A DNA stretch of 64,000 nt from Desulfomonile tiedjei DSM 6799 (lineage in GTDB: Bacteria; Desulfobacterota; Desulfomonilia; Desulfomonilales; Desulfomonilaceae), in the NCBI RefSeq assembly GCF_000266945.1, contig NC_018025.1, positions 496,001-560,000 on the forward strand, read 5' to 3'. The stretch's first letter is position 1, and each line of letters begins with the position of its first letter. Made by a program: the position numbers and the translations under genes. The notes beneath the pieces were generated by a model. That model saw only the letters and a list, made by a program, of their open reading frames with translations. It was not told where the DNA came from and did no database searches. Positions 28,896 to 38,024 of this stretch are shown here, one piece after another.

Positions 28896-29258
28896 ATGAA
28901 AGGTCACATTTGCCACATAGAAATTCCGGCAGATAACCTCGGAACACTGCAGAAATTTTATAGCGGTGTTTTTGAATGGGATTTCGAGAAAATGCCGGGA
29001 GACATGGAGTATTACGGGATCGACCACGGAGACGAAAAACCCATGGCCGGCATGATGTCACGCCAGGATCCCGGACATACACCCACTTTCTACATTTGCG
29101 TGGAATCGGTTGAAGCCTCTCTCGACAGAGCCAAAGAGGAAGGAGCAACCATAATTGTTCCCAGGACGGCAGTCAAAGGCATGGGTTGGTATGCCGTTGC
29201 TCTTGATCCTCAGAAAAACCTCTTCGGGTTATGGCAGGCAGACGAAAGCGCAGCTTAG
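28896..29258 (+). CDS. VOC superfamily (glyoxalase/dioxygenase-fold) protein
   Basis: The 120-residue single-domain protein has two beta-alpha-beta-beta-beta modules: ICHIEIPADNLGTLQKFYSG near residues 5-24 and TFYICVESVEASLDRAKEEG near 67-86. The end is VALDPQKNLFGLWQ. The first-strand histidine H7 is a possible metal ligand. Small members of this family include lyases, isomerases and antibiotic-binding proteins, and no specific reaction can be named. The ATG at 28896 has a strong GGAGGAATGAACC ribosome-binding site. It is monocistronic and followed by a 93-base cruciform. Confidence 0.85.
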   Translation: MKGHICHIEIPADNLGTLQKFYSGVFEWDFEKMPGDMEYYGIDHGDEKPMAGMMSRQDPGHTPTFYICVESVEASLDRAKEEGATIIVPRTAVKGMGWYAVALDPQKNLFGLWQADESAA

Positions 29259-29283
29259 CGGCTCGACAGACGCAGATCGTCTG

Positions 29284-29376
29284 ATACCTACTCGCTTTCA
29301 AGCAGCAAATACTGGGGAAACCCTTCTTGTAAGAAGTGTTTCCCCAAGTATTACTTCTTTGAAAGCGAGTAGGTAT
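29284..29376. repeat. 93-base cruciform/hairpin element after the VOC gene
   Basis: The perfect 18-base outer arms (29284-29301, ATACCTACTCGCTTTCAA, with 29359-29376) enclose an inner stem. The inner stem is built on GGGGAAAC/GTTTCCCC and CTTCTTGTAAGAAG. The inner stem belongs to the GGGGAACCTTCT hairpin family seen at 42381 and 44171. A transcription terminator or a multicopy element is possible. Confidence 0.6.
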
Positions 29377-29766
29377 GAGTAGATTGTCGGCGCCGGTCCT
29401 CAACAAAGCGTCTACCCAATGGTGTTCATCTACGCCGTCAAATCGTTTCGCATGCGTCGAGATAGCCGCCACGGCACATGCAACTGGATCCGATAGGGCA
29501 ACAGCCAAATACCTCATCCTTTGCGCATCTCTCACAGCGATAATAATTTACTGGGCAACTCATATTAAATGATTTCAAGGGCTTTCTTGATTTTTCATGC
29601 GGGCTTGATTCCTGATTCACGGTAATTCTCCTTGTGTCGCTTTACCAATAGGATGCCGATCCGTCCGGGAAAGTTTCGTACCAAAATGTATCGGATCGGG
29701 AGATGGTTTCAGGCATCCTTAATACTATTTTTGCATTCAAGATGTTTACTGCACTGATCTGGCTCC

Positions 29767-29907: not shown

Positions 29908-30285
29908 TCAGTTCTCCAGCAATTCCTGTACTGCTTCGAGTAACTCCGAAGTGCTTACCGGTTTGGTAAATGTCCGGCATGCTCCGAGGCGATCCGCGAT
30001 CTGCAGACACACGGAACCCGAAGTTGCAAGTCCTCCGCCTGAAATGGCTATAATTTTGGCATCAGCAAAATCTCGTCTCAGCTCTCTTATTACCTCTATG
30101 CCTTCTTTCTCAGGCATTACCACATCTGTGATGATCAGGTCCGTAGGATTCTCGCGATACAGCCTCATTCCAATTTTGCCATCTCTGGCTTCAACAGTAT
30201 CGTAACCGTGCTTCTTGAGAAGTCGGCTGTAAAGTTCGAGGATATTGGGATCATCGTCAATTATCAATATTCTTGGTTGCACCAT
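29908..30285 (-). CDS. single-domain response regulator (CheY-like receiver)
   Basis: The 125-residue receiver has the acidic pocket ILIIDDDPN near residues 5-13, the phospho-acceptor Asp in LIITDVVMPEKEG near 54 and the conserved Lys in FTKPVS. A variant IAISGGG replaces the usual Ser/Thr loop context. No output domain is attached. The ATG at 30285 is preferred, since AGGGGC lies about seven bases upstream; an ATG at 30324 adds 13 residues. It lies downstream of the hybrid kinase cluster and is probably a diffusible relay partner of it. Confidence 0.9.
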   Translation of the reverse strand: MVQPRILIIDDDPNILELYSRLLKKHGYDTVEARDGKIGMRLYRENPTDLIITDVVMPEKEGIEVIRELRRDFADAKIIAISGGGLATSGSVCLQIADRLGACRTFTKPVSTSELLEAVQELLEN

Positions 30286-30377
30286 CCCATGCCCCTGTTC
30301 AAAAAAGTTGCATATACATAGCATGTTCTTCTTGCGATGTGGGTGATGTTCTTCATCTGTTCAAATAGTTTCGAGCA

Positions 30378-32207
30378 TCATGGATTGGCGTCCCCCTTTT
30401 TCTTCAAGGGAATACAGCCATGATCGGCCAAATGTCTCTTGACGAGTTTCACCACGTCAGCTTTTCCATAAGCTGAAGCTTCCACAAGAGCTCTATAAAG
30501 TGATGGAAGATCCTCTTTCAGGTCTGCAGCACTGTACCTGGACAGCAGAATTTGGGCGACATCTGCATGTCCTGCGCGAATGGCTTCAATGAGCGCCGAA
30601 TCACCCGCATTATTATGACGCGTCACATCAGCTCCTTCGTCCACTAAGAGTTGAACCACTTCGGGGTATTTGAAAAATGCAGCTTCCATGAGCGCCGTAT
30701 TGCCTTTGTTGTCGCTCCCATCCAGTCGTGCTCCAGAGTTTATCAATCCTTTGACACGTTTCAGATCTCCGGATCGAGAGGCCACAATTAACTCTTTGTC
30801 CAATCGCGATGGGGCAGGTGAAGGCTCGGCTTCATGCCTGTTTACTCCGTAAGTATGTGAATCCATGCGCAAAAGTACGAGATTGTTCCGACCTCCGCCT
30901 TGAGCCTGTTTGATGGCCTTTTCGGTGATCGAAATCACATGTTCCACGTGTACAAGGCTGGACGGAAATCCCCAGGTTATACCGAGGCACGCGGTGACAG
31001 GAAGCATTGTGTCATCTGCAGAGACAACTGCCGATTCGAGACGCGACTGAACCTTTCTTGCCAGTTCCAGTACCTGCGATTCCTGATATCCGGGAAGGAC
31101 CAGCAAGAGTTTATCACTGTCGTAGCGCCCGAAAGCATCATTGGGTTTCACATACGACTGAACGATGCTTGCCACTTCTTTTCCAGCCAGGTCGGCAATG
31201 AGCTGTCCGAAATCGTCTCTCAAGGCTGCATAAGAGTCCAACTGAATCATCATTGCGCTTAATGGGGTTCTATTCTGTATGGATTGCAGCAATTCTTTCT
31301 TCAGAGATACAAGAATCCCTTCTCGTCCCAGGAGGTCTGAGGGAATGTCGTCCTGCTCGGACGCTGCCGCATGAGCGCCTGCAAGACGATCCAACGTGCG
31401 AAAACCTTCTCGAATCCGAATTCTCAGCTCGTTGGGCTGGAACGGTTTTAGCATGTAGTCGTCAGCGCCTGCATCCAAACCTTCTATGATATCGTCAGTC
31501 TTTTCCCTTCCCGTCAGGAGGATCACGTAAATGTAGTCGCTTTTTATTCTTTTGCGCAGCTCACGACAGACCTCAACTCCTTGAAGCCCGGGCATCATCC
31601 AATCGAGAATTGCCAATCTCGGTGGATCGGCGCTTGATAAAATTCTCAAAGCAGACTTCCCGTCAGGAGTGACGATGGGATCGTGTCCCCATTTCATGAG
31701 TGTTGCTTGTAGCATTCTCAGTGAAACGGGATCATCGTCGGAGATCAAAATTTTCCATGACTGCAATTTGCCCGATACAGAGGTAAGAACTCCGCAAACA
31801 GTCTTGATCCCCGATTCCAGGCGCTGGAAGGCTTCTTCGGCTCCAGAGAGATTCTGCGTCTGCCCCATGGTTTCCAATTCACGCACGACTCTCAGTAATT
31901 TCTCCGCACCGAGATTAGCCACGGAACTTTTCAATGCCTGCGCTGCAGAAGCCAGTTGCACAGGATTCTTGTGCTGCAAGGCATTGCGGACGGCAGCCAC
32001 CAGTTCGGAAACATAACTGAGGAAAAGCCCGGCGACCTCCCTCGCGAGGTCGTAATCGCCGAACATCTTTGCGATTAATGCCTGCTTGTCAAATTCAGCC
32101 ACAGGACCTGACGCACTTGTTTCAATGCCAGAAGTATCCGTATCAGGAACAAGCCTCTCAATGGCAGTCAGAACGTGCTCGGATCGTGATGATTGGAATG
32201 AACCCAT
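30378..32207 (-). CDS. degenerate HPt - receiver - degenerate GGDEF - ankyrin fusion protein
   Basis: The 609-residue protein has an unusual order. An HPt-like helical domain (about 40-125) has its phosphorylatable His replaced by Gln90 in AQALKSSVANLGA. A full receiver (151-275) keeps DDD near 157-159, D202 and K254. A GGDEF-fold domain (about 315-447) has the signature position reading DSDKL (363-367), so cyclase activity is not expected. Two to four ankyrin-like repeats (about 470-595) show GNTALMEAA and GDSALIEAI. It is preceded by AGGAGTT five bases before the ATG at 32207. It probably acts as a phosphorylation-controlled protein-binding output of the neighbouring kinase. No other member of this exact order is known to me. 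Confidence 0.85.
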   Translation of the reverse strand: MGSFQSSRSEHVLTAIERLVPDTDTSGIETSASGPVAEFDKQALIAKMFGDYDLAREVAGLFLSYVSELVAAVRNALQHKNPVQLASAAQALKSSVANLGAEKLLRVVRELETMGQTQNLSGAEEAFQRLESGIKTVCGVLTSVSGKLQSWKILISDDDPVSLRMLQATLMKWGHDPIVTPDGKSALRILSSADPPRLAILDWMMPGLQGVEVCRELRKRIKSDYIYVILLTGREKTDDIIEGLDAGADDYMLKPFQPNELRIRIREGFRTLDRLAGAHAAASEQDDIPSDLLGREGILVSLKKELLQSIQNRTPLSAMMIQLDSYAALRDDFGQLIADLAGKEVASIVQSYVKPNDAFGRYDSDKLLLVLPGYQESQVLELARKVQSRLESAVVSADDTMLPVTACLGITWGFPSSLVHVEHVISITEKAIKQAQGGGRNNLVLLRMDSHTYGVNRHEAEPSPAPSRLDKELIVASRSGDLKRVKGLINSGARLDGSDNKGNTALMEAAFFKYPEVVQLLVDEGADVTRHNNAGDSALIEAIRAGHADVAQILLSRYSAADLKEDLPSLYRALVEASAYGKADVVKLVKRHLADHGCIPLKKKGDANP

Positions 32208-32349: not shown

Positions 32350-33258
32350 TCAAATGCATAGCTCCACTCGATTGCGCCCGCAATTCTTGGCGTGGTAAAG
32401 AGCTTCGTCAGCCTTTTTCAACATCTGATCCATGTTCTTCACTGATGTTCCAGGAGCCGAGGTCACGCCCAAGCTTAAGGTACAGGAAATTTCCCCCGCG
32501 GATGTTACTATCGGTTTATCTGCTATACAAGACCGTATTCGTTCCGCGGCATTCCGTGCTTCTTGTTCGTCGCAACCCGGTAAGATAATGACAAACTCTT
32601 CGCCTCCATAACGGCCCACAGAATCGTACATGCGCAGCGAAGAAGCAATCCTTTTAGCCAACTCTTTAAGCACGGCGTCTCCCGCCAAATGCCCATATCC
32701 ATCGTTTATATGCTTAAAATGATCTATGTCAGCCAATATTACGGACAACTTAGTGGATTCACGACGAGATCTCTCCAGTTCACTATGAAGGGCCTGGAAG
32801 ATCGCCGTGCGGTTGAAAAGACTTGTGAGGCTGTCGTGTGACGCTTGAAAACGTGATTTTTCGAGTGCGAGAGTAAGCTCCTCGTGGAGTTGCACAATGC
32901 GTGCACCTGTTCTGATCCGGACCTTCAGTTCGTTAGGGTTGAAGGGTTTGGTTATGTAATCGTCCGCTCCTGCTTCAAGGCCTTCGATAACTTCGTCTTG
33001 TCTACTTTTCGAAGTCAGGAGAATGAGGTACTTGTACGGTTGCTGCTCGAGTTTCCTGATCTCGCGACAAATGTTGACTCCATCTATTCCCGGCATCATC
33101 CAATCGAGAATGATGAGTCTGGGAGCATTTTCTGCGGAAAGTAACCGCCAGGCGCACGAGCCGTCGGCGCAGACTATCACCTCGTGACCCCATTTTTGCA
33201 GTTGAGCTTCCAGGAGTCGTCTTGTAACGGGATCGTCGTCTGCAACAAGTACTCTCAT
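32350..33258 (-). CDS. receiver-GGDEF diguanylate cyclase response regulator
   Basis: The 302-residue protein has a receiver (1-125; D52 in LDWMMPGIDG, K104 in TKPF) and a GGDEF domain (about 135-300) that makes c-di-GMP from GTP. The active-site loop is GGEEF at 218-222. The inhibitory I-site R-x2-D (RMYD, 209-212) lies exactly five residues before it, so product feedback is expected. Its ATG overlaps the stop of the hybrid kinase gene (ATGA-type overlap). Translational coupling and functional pairing are therefore likely. The receiver resembles that of the 609-residue fusion, including the WMMPG motif. Confidence 0.93.
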   Translation of the reverse strand: MRVLVADDDPVTRRLLEAQLQKWGHEVIVCADGSCAWRLLSAENAPRLIILDWMMPGIDGVNICREIRKLEQQPYKYLILLTSKSRQDEVIEGLEAGADDYITKPFNPNELKVRIRTGARIVQLHEELTLALEKSRFQASHDSLTSLFNRTAIFQALHSELERSRRESTKLSVILADIDHFKHINDGYGHLAGDAVLKELAKRIASSLRMYDSVGRYGGEEFVIILPGCDEQEARNAAERIRSCIADKPIVTSAGEISCTLSLGVTSAPGTSVKNMDQMLKKADEALYHAKNCGRNRVELCI

Positions 33259-36200
33259 TGCGGATCATCCTTAACGAAAATTCTCAGTGCGTCCTGCACA
33301 CTCATGATTTCCTTCTCGAGCGCAAGAAGCCTATCCCGCGCTTCTTCCATGCTCCGGCTTTTTCCCAGGTTTTCAAGCTTGAGAGCTTCTTCAACAGCTA
33401 AGTTAGCGGCGAAATTTCCGATCATACCCTTCATGGTGTGCGCTGCCATTTGCAGCATCTCAGGGTCTTGATGCTCGATAGCTTCTCTCATTTTACCCAA
33501 CAGCTTCGGTGATTCTTCTGCAAACAGATCGATCAGTTGTCTCAGGAGATCTTTGTCGCCACCCACTTGTTCCAGTAATCTGGCCTCGTCAATGTGATCG
33601 CGATCCGGAATCACCGGATCACACGCGCTCCGATCTTGAGTAAACTTATCAATCGTGAAGAAAAGCTCTCGACTGTCGACCGGTTTTGAGACATACCCGT
33701 CCATTCCCGCATCCAGACATCGTTCTCGATCACCGGTCATGGCATGCGCGGTCATTGCTATTATCGGGATATGCTCGCCTGAAGATTGTTCGGCATTCCT
33801 GATAGCCTGGGTTGTTTCAAAACCGTTCATTTCAGGCATTTCTATATCCATGAGAATCAAATCGAAACTCTCTGCTTCCAGAGACTTGAGGGCTTCCTTT
33901 CCGTTTGAGGCGATGGAGACGGTGCAGCCTCTCTTTTCCAGGAGCCGAAGAGCGAGAGTCTGATTTACCGGATTGTCTTCTACCAGGAGAATCTTGAGCA
34001 GGCGTCTTCTCTCTCCTGCTATACACTCTGCAACCGGTTGATTAGATTCATCCGGTTTGTGTGCGATGCCCAGAGTCATTTGAATTGCATTGAACAGCTC
34101 GGCCTGCTTAATGGGCTTCTTCAAGTAAATTGATATTCCGCACTGCTTGCAGCGCTCTGAATCTCCTCGATTCCGTGATGAGGTCAACATCATGATGACA
34201 GGTCCACGGGATCCCGTCGTCTCAACGATTGTTCTGGAAAGCTCGAATCCATCCATCTCAGGCATGTTGGCATCAAGAATGGTAAGGAGAAATGGAGACT
34301 CGGTTTTCTGAGCTTCTTTTACGGCAGTTAACGCCGCGGATGCTTCGTTCACACACGTGGGATTCATGCCGAATCCTGTGAGAATCTCTTTCAAGATTCT
34401 AAGATTAGTCGCATTATCATCGACCACCAAGACCGGCAATCCCATGAGGTTGAAGCGTGTGTCGGATTCTTGAAGACGGTCGGTAGAATTCTCCTGTATT
34501 TCAAATTTTGCCATGAGATGGAACGTGCTTCCGTTTCCGATCTTGCTTTCCACCCACAATTTACCGTCCATCATTGCCGCAAGTCTTGAGCCTATTGCGA
34601 GTCCGAGACCGGTTCCTCCATATCTTCGGCTCATTCCGGTATCCACTTGGGTGAATGAAGAAAATATCTCTTGCTGCTTGTCCTCAGGAATACCGATTCC
34701 CGTGTCGGACACTGAGAAATGGAGGGTTGTTTCATTGGGGGTCGACGCCGACTCGACTATCACATCCATGAACACTTCGCCGGCACTGGTGAATTTAATG
34801 GCGTTTCCGACGAGATTCACTATGATCTGTCTTAGACGTACGGGATCTCCCTTGAGGACGTCCGGGACTTCAGGCGATACCCGGAAAGCCAGTTCAAGAC
34901 CCTTTTGATGGGCCTGAATGGCAAGAGACTCCATGGTTTCACCCAACATAGCCCGCAGACCGAATCCAATGTGCTCCAATTCGAACTTTCCCGCCTCGAT
35001 TTTCGAGAAATCCAAAATATCGTTGATTAACCTGAGTAGAGAGTCTCCCGATGCTTTGATTATTTCGAGGTATTCGGTCTGTTCCCTGCTGAGTTGCGTC
35101 TGCATGAGGAGTTCGGTCATGCCAATGATGCCGTGCATCGGAGTCCGGATTTCATGGCTCATGGTCGCGAGAAAGTCGCTTTTTGCTTTACTTGCCGATT
35201 CTGCTGCCAATTTGGCCTCAACGAGATCGCTCACATCGGTGACATTGAGTATAACCCCCATATAATGGTTGCCACTGAATATGGGTTGCACCCGGAGAGC
35301 CACTTTCATCCCCGCAAGTTCGCGGTTCTCAGACATGCCGGTTCTAAGGCTTCCATGACGATAGTCATCTAAAAGCCTTCTCAATCTGTGCCCTGAAGCC
35401 GGATTTTGATGGCAATCAAAGATGTTCTTACCGACAACCTCTTCGCGCTTTAACCCGGTTTTTTCCAGAAACCAGGTGTTCACTTCAGTAATTACATCGT
35501 CCGCATCCGCGACAACGATCCCGGCATCCATTCCCTGAATCATTGTTCGCAACTTGTTGGCTTCAGCGGCAGCTTCTTCACGTGCGGAAATAAGGTCCCT
35601 CACTGCCTGTTTTCTTTCGGTGATATCCTCGGATATGCCGAGAAGATACCGCGGAGTCCCATCCTTATCGAGAATGGGTAACTTTTTGGTGTGGATGAGC
35701 CGGAGCCCGACGTGTTTTGTTTTCACCGATTCCTCGGCGATATCCATCAAACTTCTTCTGCGAAGGGTCTCTGTGTCCTGAGCATTAAATGAATCAGCTT
35801 GTTCCCGCGGAAAAATGTCATTGCTGCTCTTGGACAACACCTCTGCCTTTGAATACCCGTACAAGCGTTCGCTGGCTTTATTCCAGAGAACGAATTTCAA
35901 GTGTTCGGCGTCTTTGAGAAAAATGGCGGTCGGTAAATTTTGAATAATTGAATCGAGCAGAGCTTTTGTTCTTCTGGTTTCATCTTCTGCCCTTTTGCGC
36001 TCGGTAATATTGCGAATCGTCGAAAGACTTATTTTCCCCCAGGAACTGTCGTCCATGACATCCGAATCGAGCAGTACGTCCATCAGAGTGCCGTCTCTTC
36101 TCACGTACTGATATGGAATAGCTTTAGCACTGCCATCGCGCCAGAATGCCGGCAAGACGGTTGAAAACGCTTTTTGGGCCGATTCAGGGGTCATGATGAA

Positions 36201-37427
36201 CGAGATTTTTTTGCCGATTGCTTCCTCTCTCGTGTACCCGGTCTCCTCCGTCCACTTCTTGTTAACATTGCGGATTATCCCTTGAGGATCGATAGAATGC
36301 ATCATTACCGGAGAGTTTTCGTACATGTGTCGCGATCTCTCCTCACTTTCGGCGAGTTGTTCCTGTACACGCATCCTGTCTGTCACATCGCGTTGCATGA
36401 TCCAAAAGGATCGCAGAATATCTCCTTTGATGTCGCCTATTATGGTATTCTCAAGGTATCTGATCCGGCCGTCTTCATCTTCTTCTCTGATTTCTTGACT
36501 TGCGACCTGGCAATTGCCGTCTCTCCAGAGGCCGAGGAGATCTTCCGTGCATTCCTCCTGAAAAAAGAGCTTCGATAACGAAGAACCGACGAGAGTATCG
36601 ATGGACGTGTGTCGATGCAATTTTGCGAATTCGCTGTTCCCGTCGATCAGAGAGGCTTGCAATATTCTAGGGATCATCTGTGACTTGGGAAGAGTAACGG
36701 GTATTTGGGATTTAAGGGAAAATTCGGCCATTCCTACCGGCACTATATCCACGAGCTTCTTGTATTTTTCATTCAGGAGAATCTGCTTCTTCTCACTTGT
36801 CAAATCTTCTATGAGAACAAGCACAGAGCGTTCCGTTCCCAACCGTACAGATCTTAAGTAGATTCGTGCCCAGATCCTGTGCTTCTCGAACTGCATCAAC
36901 GCTGTCTTCACTTGAGGTTTTCTTTCCGAGAAAACTCTCTCTATAACAGCTTGAGCAGCTTGGCACGTCTTGGGCTCTGCGAATAGAGAGCTGAAACGGA
37001 TTCCAAGGAGTGAGGCGCAATTCGTGCTGATTTTCTCACAGGCATCATTGAAAAATGTTATGCAAAAGGACTTATCTACGAGAAAGACCGGTATTGGGAG
37101 AGCCTTTAACAGTTTGCCAAAGGAGGTTTTCGGCACTTCCTGCAAATCAAAGCTACCGGAAGAAGTGAGACTCGGGGCAAAGAAATTGTTCAGATCAATG
37201 GTTTCCGTCGCGACATTGGAGTTTCGAAGCAGCTTGATTGCAGCATCGTCTTCAACCGGTTCGTCAAAACTTGGCAGGTCCTTTTGACTCATGAGTTTCC
37301 TTTTCTGTTCAGCACGGTAAATCAATGGAACGTCCGATGCCAACCTTACCAGATTTGAGAGGAACATCAGAAAGAATTTCCCTCCTGTAAATTCTCCCCA
37401 CGATTGCAGCCAGTTTTCTATTGCCAT
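33255..37427 (-). CDS. multi-PAS hybrid sensor histidine kinase with two receivers and HPt
   Basis: The 1390-residue tripartite kinase has about five PAS-type segments (roughly 85-740). HisKA follows with MSHEIRTPMHG near 757, and a catalytic domain with GTGLGLAIGSRLAAMMDG. Receiver 1 (about 995-1115, ILDANMPEMDG) and receiver 2 (about 1150-1265, LMDIEMPEMNGFE) precede a C-terminal HPt with an intact His in AAHTMKGMIGNF (near 1330). There is one hydrophobic stretch near 20-33 but no clear transmembrane pair. The start ATG at 37427 has AAGGAG eight bases upstream. An internal ATG at 37292, also with AAGGAA, could give a shorter form. It can pass phosphate through its own HPt to the three downstream receivers. 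Confidence 0.92.
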   Translation of the reverse strand: MAIENWLQSWGEFTGGKFFLMFLSNLVRLASDVPLIYRAEQKRKLMSQKDLPSFDEPVEDDAAIKLLRNSNVATETIDLNNFFAPSLTSSGSFDLQEVPKTSFGKLLKALPIPVFLVDKSFCITFFNDACEKISTNCASLLGIRFSSLFAEPKTCQAAQAVIERVFSERKPQVKTALMQFEKHRIWARIYLRSVRLGTERSVLVLIEDLTSEKKQILLNEKYKKLVDIVPVGMAEFSLKSQIPVTLPKSQMIPRILQASLIDGNSEFAKLHRHTSIDTLVGSSLSKLFFQEECTEDLLGLWRDGNCQVASQEIREEDEDGRIRYLENTIIGDIKGDILRSFWIMQRDVTDRMRVQEQLAESEERSRHMYENSPVMMHSIDPQGIIRNVNKKWTEETGYTREEAIGKKISFIMTPESAQKAFSTVLPAFWRDGSAKAIPYQYVRRDGTLMDVLLDSDVMDDSSWGKISLSTIRNITERKRAEDETRRTKALLDSIIQNLPTAIFLKDAEHLKFVLWNKASERLYGYSKAEVLSKSSNDIFPREQADSFNAQDTETLRRRSLMDIAEESVKTKHVGLRLIHTKKLPILDKDGTPRYLLGISEDITERKQAVRDLISAREEAAAEANKLRTMIQGMDAGIVVADADDVITEVNTWFLEKTGLKREEVVGKNIFDCHQNPASGHRLRRLLDDYRHGSLRTGMSENRELAGMKVALRVQPIFSGNHYMGVILNVTDVSDLVEAKLAAESASKAKSDFLATMSHEIRTPMHGIIGMTELLMQTQLSREQTEYLEIIKASGDSLLRLINDILDFSKIEAGKFELEHIGFGLRAMLGETMESLAIQAHQKGLELAFRVSPEVPDVLKGDPVRLRQIIVNLVGNAIKFTSAGEVFMDVIVESASTPNETTLHFSVSDTGIGIPEDKQQEIFSSFTQVDTGMSRRYGGTGLGLAIGSRLAAMMDGKLWVESKIGNGSTFHLMAKFEIQENSTDRLQESDTRFNLMGLPVLVVDDNATNLRILKEILTGFGMNPTCVNEASAALTAVKEAQKTESPFLLTILDANMPEMDGFELSRTIVETTGSRGPVIMMLTSSRNRGDSERCKQCGISIYLKKPIKQAELFNAIQMTLGIAHKPDESNQPVAECIAGERRRLLKILLVEDNPVNQTLALRLLEKRGCTVSIASNGKEALKSLEAESFDLILMDIEMPEMNGFETTQAIRNAEQSSGEHIPIIAMTAHAMTGDRERCLDAGMDGYVSKPVDSRELFFTIDKFTQDRSACDPVIPDRDHIDEARLLEQVGGDKDLLRQLIDLFAEESPKLLGKMREAIEHQDPEMLQMAAHTMKGMIGNFAANLAVEEALKLENLGKSRSMEEARDRLLALEKEIMSVQDALRIFVKDDPQ

Positions 37428-37707
37428 GGGAACCACTCCTTCTTCTGTTCTTCATGCTTCTCATTTTCTCGCAGTGGGATGGCTCAACAAACGGCAAAGA
37501 CTTTGTTGATTATTCTCACGAGCTGCATAATCAATGCAGGATCTTGAGATCAGGTACCGCCCTTCTTAGCGCGGGGAAATTGCCCAGATGGCGATTGCTG
37601 TGGATTTAGTTCATCCGACAAGACTCTTGGCTGTACCATTGTGCAAGAAAGGGGCCACTATAGAATTGTCGATGATCGGCGCAATTCTGTCGTCTATTCC
37701 GCGTGTG

Positions 37708-38024
37708 AATACAGGATATGGTAGGGACCGGCGTCTCGAAACTGTCTCAAAAGTCAAAATTTATCCTGGATCATGGCACGAATTTCTCATCATATCCCGC
37801 CCCTATTGTAGGGGCGGACCTGCGAGTCCGCCCGAATAAGGGTAGGCACTAGGCCTACCCCTACGAAGATGGCGAATCGTGGCACGATATGTTGTGTATT
37901 CAAGAATTTTGAGACAGTTCCTCTGCCGGTCCATTTTAACGATATCATTGATTATATTGAAGACGTGCCGGCCACGAAGGCACGGCACCTACCAATACCC
38001 CTGTCGTCAGGCGGACATTAGTTT
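37708..38024 (+). repeat. composite repeat B copy 1, interrupted by a MITE-like insert
   Basis: The outer parts (37708-37737 and 37921-38024) align to an uninterrupted ~130-base repeat at 57120-57250. The left side reads AATACAGGATATGGTAGGGA then CCGGCGTC. The right side reads CTGCCGGTCC, then CGATATCATTG and GGCACGGCACC. A third, inverted copy lies at 43216-43541. Confidence 0.7.
37740..37919. mobile_element. 180-bp MITE-like palindromic insert, copy 1
   Basis: The perfect 13-base terminal inverted repeats AACTGTCTCAAAA (37740-37752) and TTTTGAGACAGTT (37907-37919) flank two internal hairpins: GGGCGGAC-6-GTCCGCCC and GGGTAGG/CCTACCC. The element has no coding capacity. It interrupts repeat B. 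A related, more degenerate insert lies at 43323-43503. Confidence 0.65.

Follow-up and report, generated by a model that had tools for sequence, protein, structure and literature searches.

Gene neighborhood and domain architecture

We analyzed a 64,000-base stretch of the Desulfomonile tiedjei DSM 6799 genome (the window; bases 496001-560000 of the 6,500,104-base contig NC_018025.1, in a genome of 6,527,027 bases). On its minus strand lies a cluster of four genes in one direction, encoding a hybrid histidine kinase, a REC-GGDEF protein, a fusion protein and a lone receiver (Table 1), and the REC-GGDEF gene overlaps the stop codon end of the kinase gene by 4 bases. Scans for promoters and terminators returned fewer sites than in shuffled sequences. 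The window also contains a non-coding 196-bp element with inverted ends (37735-37930), a dispersed small repeat with 42 matches in the genome, mostly near full-length and at 80-88% identity. Directly downstream of a glyoxalase-like open reading frame (28896-29258) is a long, near-perfect hairpin (29281-29379; -57 kcal/mol, z -11).

Table 1. Coordinates of the gene cluster and of the domains and motifs of the fusion protein, in window positions.
Feature	Position	Strand	Basis
Hybrid histidine kinase, PAS repeats-HisKA-HATPase-REC-REC-HPt	33255..37436	-	ORF, Pfam; its HPt has His
Active-looking REC-GGDEF diguanylate cyclase	32350..33258	-	GRYGGEEF, RMYD; Pfam
HPt(Q90)-REC-GGDEF(DSDKL)-ANK fusion protein, 609 aa	30378..32207	-	Open frame, Pfam
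HPt domain, residues 36-148	31764..32102	-	Pfam Hpt 58-135, 33.7 bits, E 5e-8
Gln90 codon, phospho-His position of HPt	31938..31940	-	Alignment
Receiver domain, residues 151-272	31392..31757	-	Pfam Response_reg 153-265, E 2e-22
Degenerate GGDEF domain, residues 291-446	30870..31337	-	Pfam GGDEF 291-442, E 1e-16
KPND at I-site position (RxxD in active cyclases)	31137..31148	-	Alignment
DSDKL replacing GGDEF, residues 363-367 (D363-S364-D365-K366-L367)	31107..31121	-	Alignment
Four ankyrin repeats, residues 466-596	30420..30812	-	Pfam Ank_2 473-557, E 1e-18
Single-domain receiver, last in cluster	29908..30324	-	ORF, Pfam

Counting every Pfam match above the curated cut-offs, the fusion comprises an HPt domain, a receiver, a GGDEF domain and tandem ankyrin repeats, the last recognized by Ank_2, Ank and Ank_4 alike. 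This is the order HPt-REC-GGDEF-ANK given in the original prediction, and a full-length ortholog, described below, has it too. The AlphaFold model (mean pLDDT 75) agrees with the Pfam match in giving the HPt domain a four-helix bundle (helices 52-78, 82-99, 102-116, and 120-146), and it also contains the receiver, a GGDEF fold and four ankyrin helix pairs (468-490, 501-523, 538-555, and 567-595); its linkers are disordered and the overall domain arrangement is undefined (pTM 0.35). The top Foldseek matches are WspR (the best), PleD, and DgcR, and PleD is the nearest relative by sequence among solved structures (E 3e-32). An active REC-GGDEF enzyme with a similar receiver had also been predicted in the same cluster, and the neighboring gene does carry the cyclase and I-site motifs listed in Table 1, with a receiver 57% identical to that of the fusion.

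Loss of catalytic residues in two of the four domains

As had been claimed from the initial inspection, only the receiver of the fusion retains its catalytic residues. It carries the full set expected of a response regulator (acidic pair, phospho-accepting Asp, Thr/Ser, and Lys) as D157, D158, D202, T232, and K254, all of them invariant in the ortholog. The HPt domain, on the other hand, has Gln in both orthologs at the position of the phosphorylatable His on which HPt function depends. Nine HPt domains, each translated, passed the Pfam search of this genome; the other eight all have His at this position, and the fusion alone lacks it. The Gly at H+4 is also replaced, by Ser, in the window protein.

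We aligned the GGDEF domain with PleD, in which the roles of the active-site, guanine-site, and I-site positions are established. The PleD residues G368, G369, and E371 are replaced by D363, S364, and K366, the metal ligand E370 corresponds to an Asp (D365), and D327, K332, and N335 are replaced by Q322, A327, and R330. The GGDEF/GGEEF motif and the set of metal and guanine ligands that mark an active diguanylate cyclase are thus not preserved; at the residue level, the domain is devoid of what c-di-GMP synthesis requires. Its match to the profile, at 64.6 bits, is the weakest among the seven GGDEF domains of the genome (143-171 bits for the others), and none of the other six coincides with ankyrin matches.

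At the I-site, PleD R359 is replaced by K354, D362 is kept as D357, and the second Arg, R390, is replaced by K385, so that the window protein does not have the RxxD and supporting Arg of a c-di-GMP effector. The ortholog reads RDGD here, yet it too has Lys at the second Arg position. The dead GGDEF domain had been proposed as a possible sensor of GTP or c-di-GMP. A GTP sensor is not borne out, given that the equivalents of D327, K332, and N335 are gone in both orthologs and that of E370 is Asp; the case for a c-di-GMP sensor is weak in the window protein, which has Lys in place of both I-site Arg residues, though the ortholog has RDGD.

Conservation in a second Desulfomonile genome

The ortholog, from a second Desulfomonile genome, has 601 residues, 57% identity over its full length, the same domain order, Gln at the phospho-His position and SEDKL at the GGDEF motif. 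Because the ortholog has the same Gln and a dead GGDEF domain, the losses are not decay within one strain. Identity in this one ortholog pair varies widely by part, from 81% in the receiver and 65% in the ankyrin region (28/33 residues in the second repeat) to 49% each in the HPt and GGDEF domains and 33% and 18% in two linkers. Within the HPt domain, 12 of the 17 residues around Q90 are identical, compared with 43 of the remaining 96. The linker between receiver and GGDEF domain is 5 residues shorter in both orthologs than in five related active-looking cyclases, and residues 277-290 between the two domains are disordered in the AlphaFold model; this deletion and disorder make the usual helical coupling of receiver to GGDEF unlikely.

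In the second genome, the kinase, fusion, and lone receiver genes (the last receiver 66% identical to its ortholog) are consecutive, with no REC-GGDEF gene among them. Right where the kinase gene stops, the ortholog contig reads TGATGAGGATGCTTGTCGCTGAAGTCGTCGAAATTTAG, with an overlapping ATG frame encoding MRMLVAEVVEI-stop. Its first seven codons (MRMLVAE; L012:862-905 on the ortholog contig) form a remnant of a REC-GGDEF gene that overlaps the kinase stop, resembling the start of the window cyclase (MRVLVAD), which likewise overlaps the kinase stop (15/21 bases identical), and that of a relative (MRILVAE, contig L018). The simplest reading of these sequences is that the cyclase was deleted from the operon of the ortholog, although an assembly fault is possible in a MAG scaffold of this size (5.3 kb). 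If the deletion is real, the dead fusion was retained where the active enzyme was dispensable. Since the orthologous operon lost this gene, the fusion seemingly does not depend on its active REC-GGDEF neighbor as a partner. Two more pairs of a kinase ending in HPt and an overlapping REC-GGDEF gene, with a gene order matching that of the window, occur in one genome (L018:5319-6251 and L019:5954-6895).

Rarity, origin, and prior record

We searched 395 genomes of the phylum and two more sets, of 247 and 244 genomes, with full-length profiles, scoring the best 3-5 candidates per genome (the 244-genome set having no internal positive control), and recovered no other four-domain protein. The best matches outside Desulfomonile span separate kinase and REC-GGDEF genes or cover REC-GGDEF alone. 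A search of 16 more genomes from the family at E 1e-60 yielded a single REC-GGDEF match and nothing full-length, and a plasmid search with the whole protein gave partial REC-GGDEF matches alone, none covering 80% of the query. Among the genomes searched, then, the architecture was found only in Desulfomonile and appears to be rare and genus-restricted. The original prediction described it as unrecognized; rare it is in these searches, but the domain set is on record. Jernigan & Bordenstein 2014 (PMC3932732), the only source on ankyrin-GGDEF fusions that we found in the literature, put the number of ankyrin proteins in D. tiedjei at 42, and the legend to a supplement assigns HPT, REC, and GGDEF domains to an ankyrin protein, Desti_0449. 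The window protein should be Desti_0449, because it is the sole protein that we found in the genome with that domain set. The legend names the domains, and in it the loss of catalytic residues from HPt and GGDEF goes unmentioned; we found no report in the literature of the degeneracy of the fusion, its conservation or the cyclase deletion.

A tree of REC-GGDEF sequences places the two orthologous fusions, on a long branch, with the cyclases that lie next to kinases in the Desulfomonile family (91/95); a tree of receivers alone did not resolve the sister group of the fusion. A plausible origin is the joining of the 3′ end of a kinase gene to the following cyclase gene, with ankyrins drawn from the large stock of the genome, because the profile matches elsewhere span a kinase HPt end and the next REC-GGDEF gene. 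Copying of the HPt domain from the adjacent kinase is unsupported (23-32% identity to all kinase HPt domains compared). The fusion shares its REC-GGDEF core with PleD/WspR cyclases, particularly the kinase-adjacent ones of Desulfomonile, and differs from them in its lost active site, its shorter linker and the domains added at both ends.

Proposed role and alternatives

We propose with moderate confidence that the fusion is a phosphorylation-switched response regulator whose output would be ankyrin-mediated protein binding, a role that had been suggested at the outset and is consistent with the conservation pattern of the ortholog pair. In the mechanism that we infer, phosphate would travel from the adjacent hybrid kinase, the likely phosphodonor, along the kinase's internal His-Asp-His relay to receiver residue D202; phosphorylation would alter the dimer face of the receiver, which in turn would expose or cluster the four ankyrin repeats so that a partner protein is bound or released. 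The GGDEF domain would act as a structural or protein-contact spacer. The HPt domain probably tethers the receiver or tunes its binding without transfer, as its phosphate-carrying residue is gone but the surrounding sequence is conserved. We favor this reading because the receiver alone has a catalytic set, invariant in both orthologs; because receiver and ankyrins are better conserved than the HPt and GGDEF domains and the linkers; because catalytic and guanine-site residues are missing from both orthologs; because a kinase with an intact HPt domain belongs to the same cluster; and because kinase, fusion, and lone receiver stay linked in the second genome despite the loss of the cyclase. The RDGD of the ortholog counts against it, since the GGDEF domain may still be under the control of a ligand.

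Such control is the core of one unlikely alternative, in which c-di-GMP at the I-site of the dead GGDEF domain would govern ankyrin binding together with receiver phosphorylation. The precedent is PopA of Caulobacter, a PleD-related response regulator of receiver and GGDEF domains. Its degenerate GGDEF domain is dead at the active site but functional at the I-site, and the protein acts by recruiting other proteins rather than by c-di-GMP synthesis (PMC12564702). Besides the ortholog's RDGD, the KPND of the window protein keeps the Asp and a positive charge, and six intact GGDEF proteins and 15 PilZ domains indicate that c-di-GMP signaling is present in the genome (EAL domains gave no match there, and c-di-GMP breakdown in D. 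tiedjei may rest on HD-GYP proteins). PopA, however, retains its RxxD, whereas the window protein has Lys for both I-site Arg residues, the second of them in the ortholog as well, and adds a pseudo-HPt domain and ankyrins to a single receiver.

Equally improbable in our judgment is that the Gln-bearing HPt domain competes with the true HPt domain for receivers, whether those of the kinase or those of response regulators, and thereby damps the relay. Plant AHP6, in which Asn replaces the phospho-His, reportedly interferes with phosphotransfer through competition for the kinases (PMC7402358), and in Ypd1, alterations close to the His reduced transfer but left binding in place (PMC6341664); Gln90 and its flanking motif are conserved in both orthologs. 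AHP6, though, stands alone as an HPt protein, whereas the HPt domain of the window protein is fused to a receiver. As a whole, this domain is also among the least conserved parts of the protein, with Ser at H+4, and GGDEF and ankyrin domains would be superfluous for a brake alone. Either this role or that of a c-di-GMP effector could be combined with the ankyrin-docking role that we favor.

Cyclases require two GGDEF domains, and a third, still less probable explanation is that the fusion blocks active REC-GGDEF cyclases by entering mixed dimers with them through its receiver. The similarity of the fusion's receiver to that of the adjacent cyclase and the grouping of the fusion with cyclases of the same bacterial family fit this explanation; the second genome, however, keeps the fusion with the adjacent cyclase deleted, where other cyclases could be targets. 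That the fusion is a decaying gene without function is very improbable: catalytic residues are lost in two domains, but the frame is full-length in two species at 57% identity, with receiver motifs intact and gene order conserved.

It seems unlikely that the fusion defines a new class of response regulator, in which HPt and GGDEF, formerly phosphorelay and second-messenger domains, would gate without catalysis an ankyrin scaffold that is controlled by phosphorylation and persists after the active cyclase has left the operon. The fusion most likely works as a docking protein under the control of phosphorylation, and it represents a rare variation, restricted to the genus, on a theme already known. 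The locus offers a natural case in which catalytic domains are retained after catalysis is lost while a working switch and a binding tail are conserved, and in which the operon of a related genome seems to have shed its active cyclase. The bacterium is free-living and has an exceptionally large set of ankyrin proteins, and the locus provides a testable model of how a two-component output may turn from second-messenger synthesis to protein docking.
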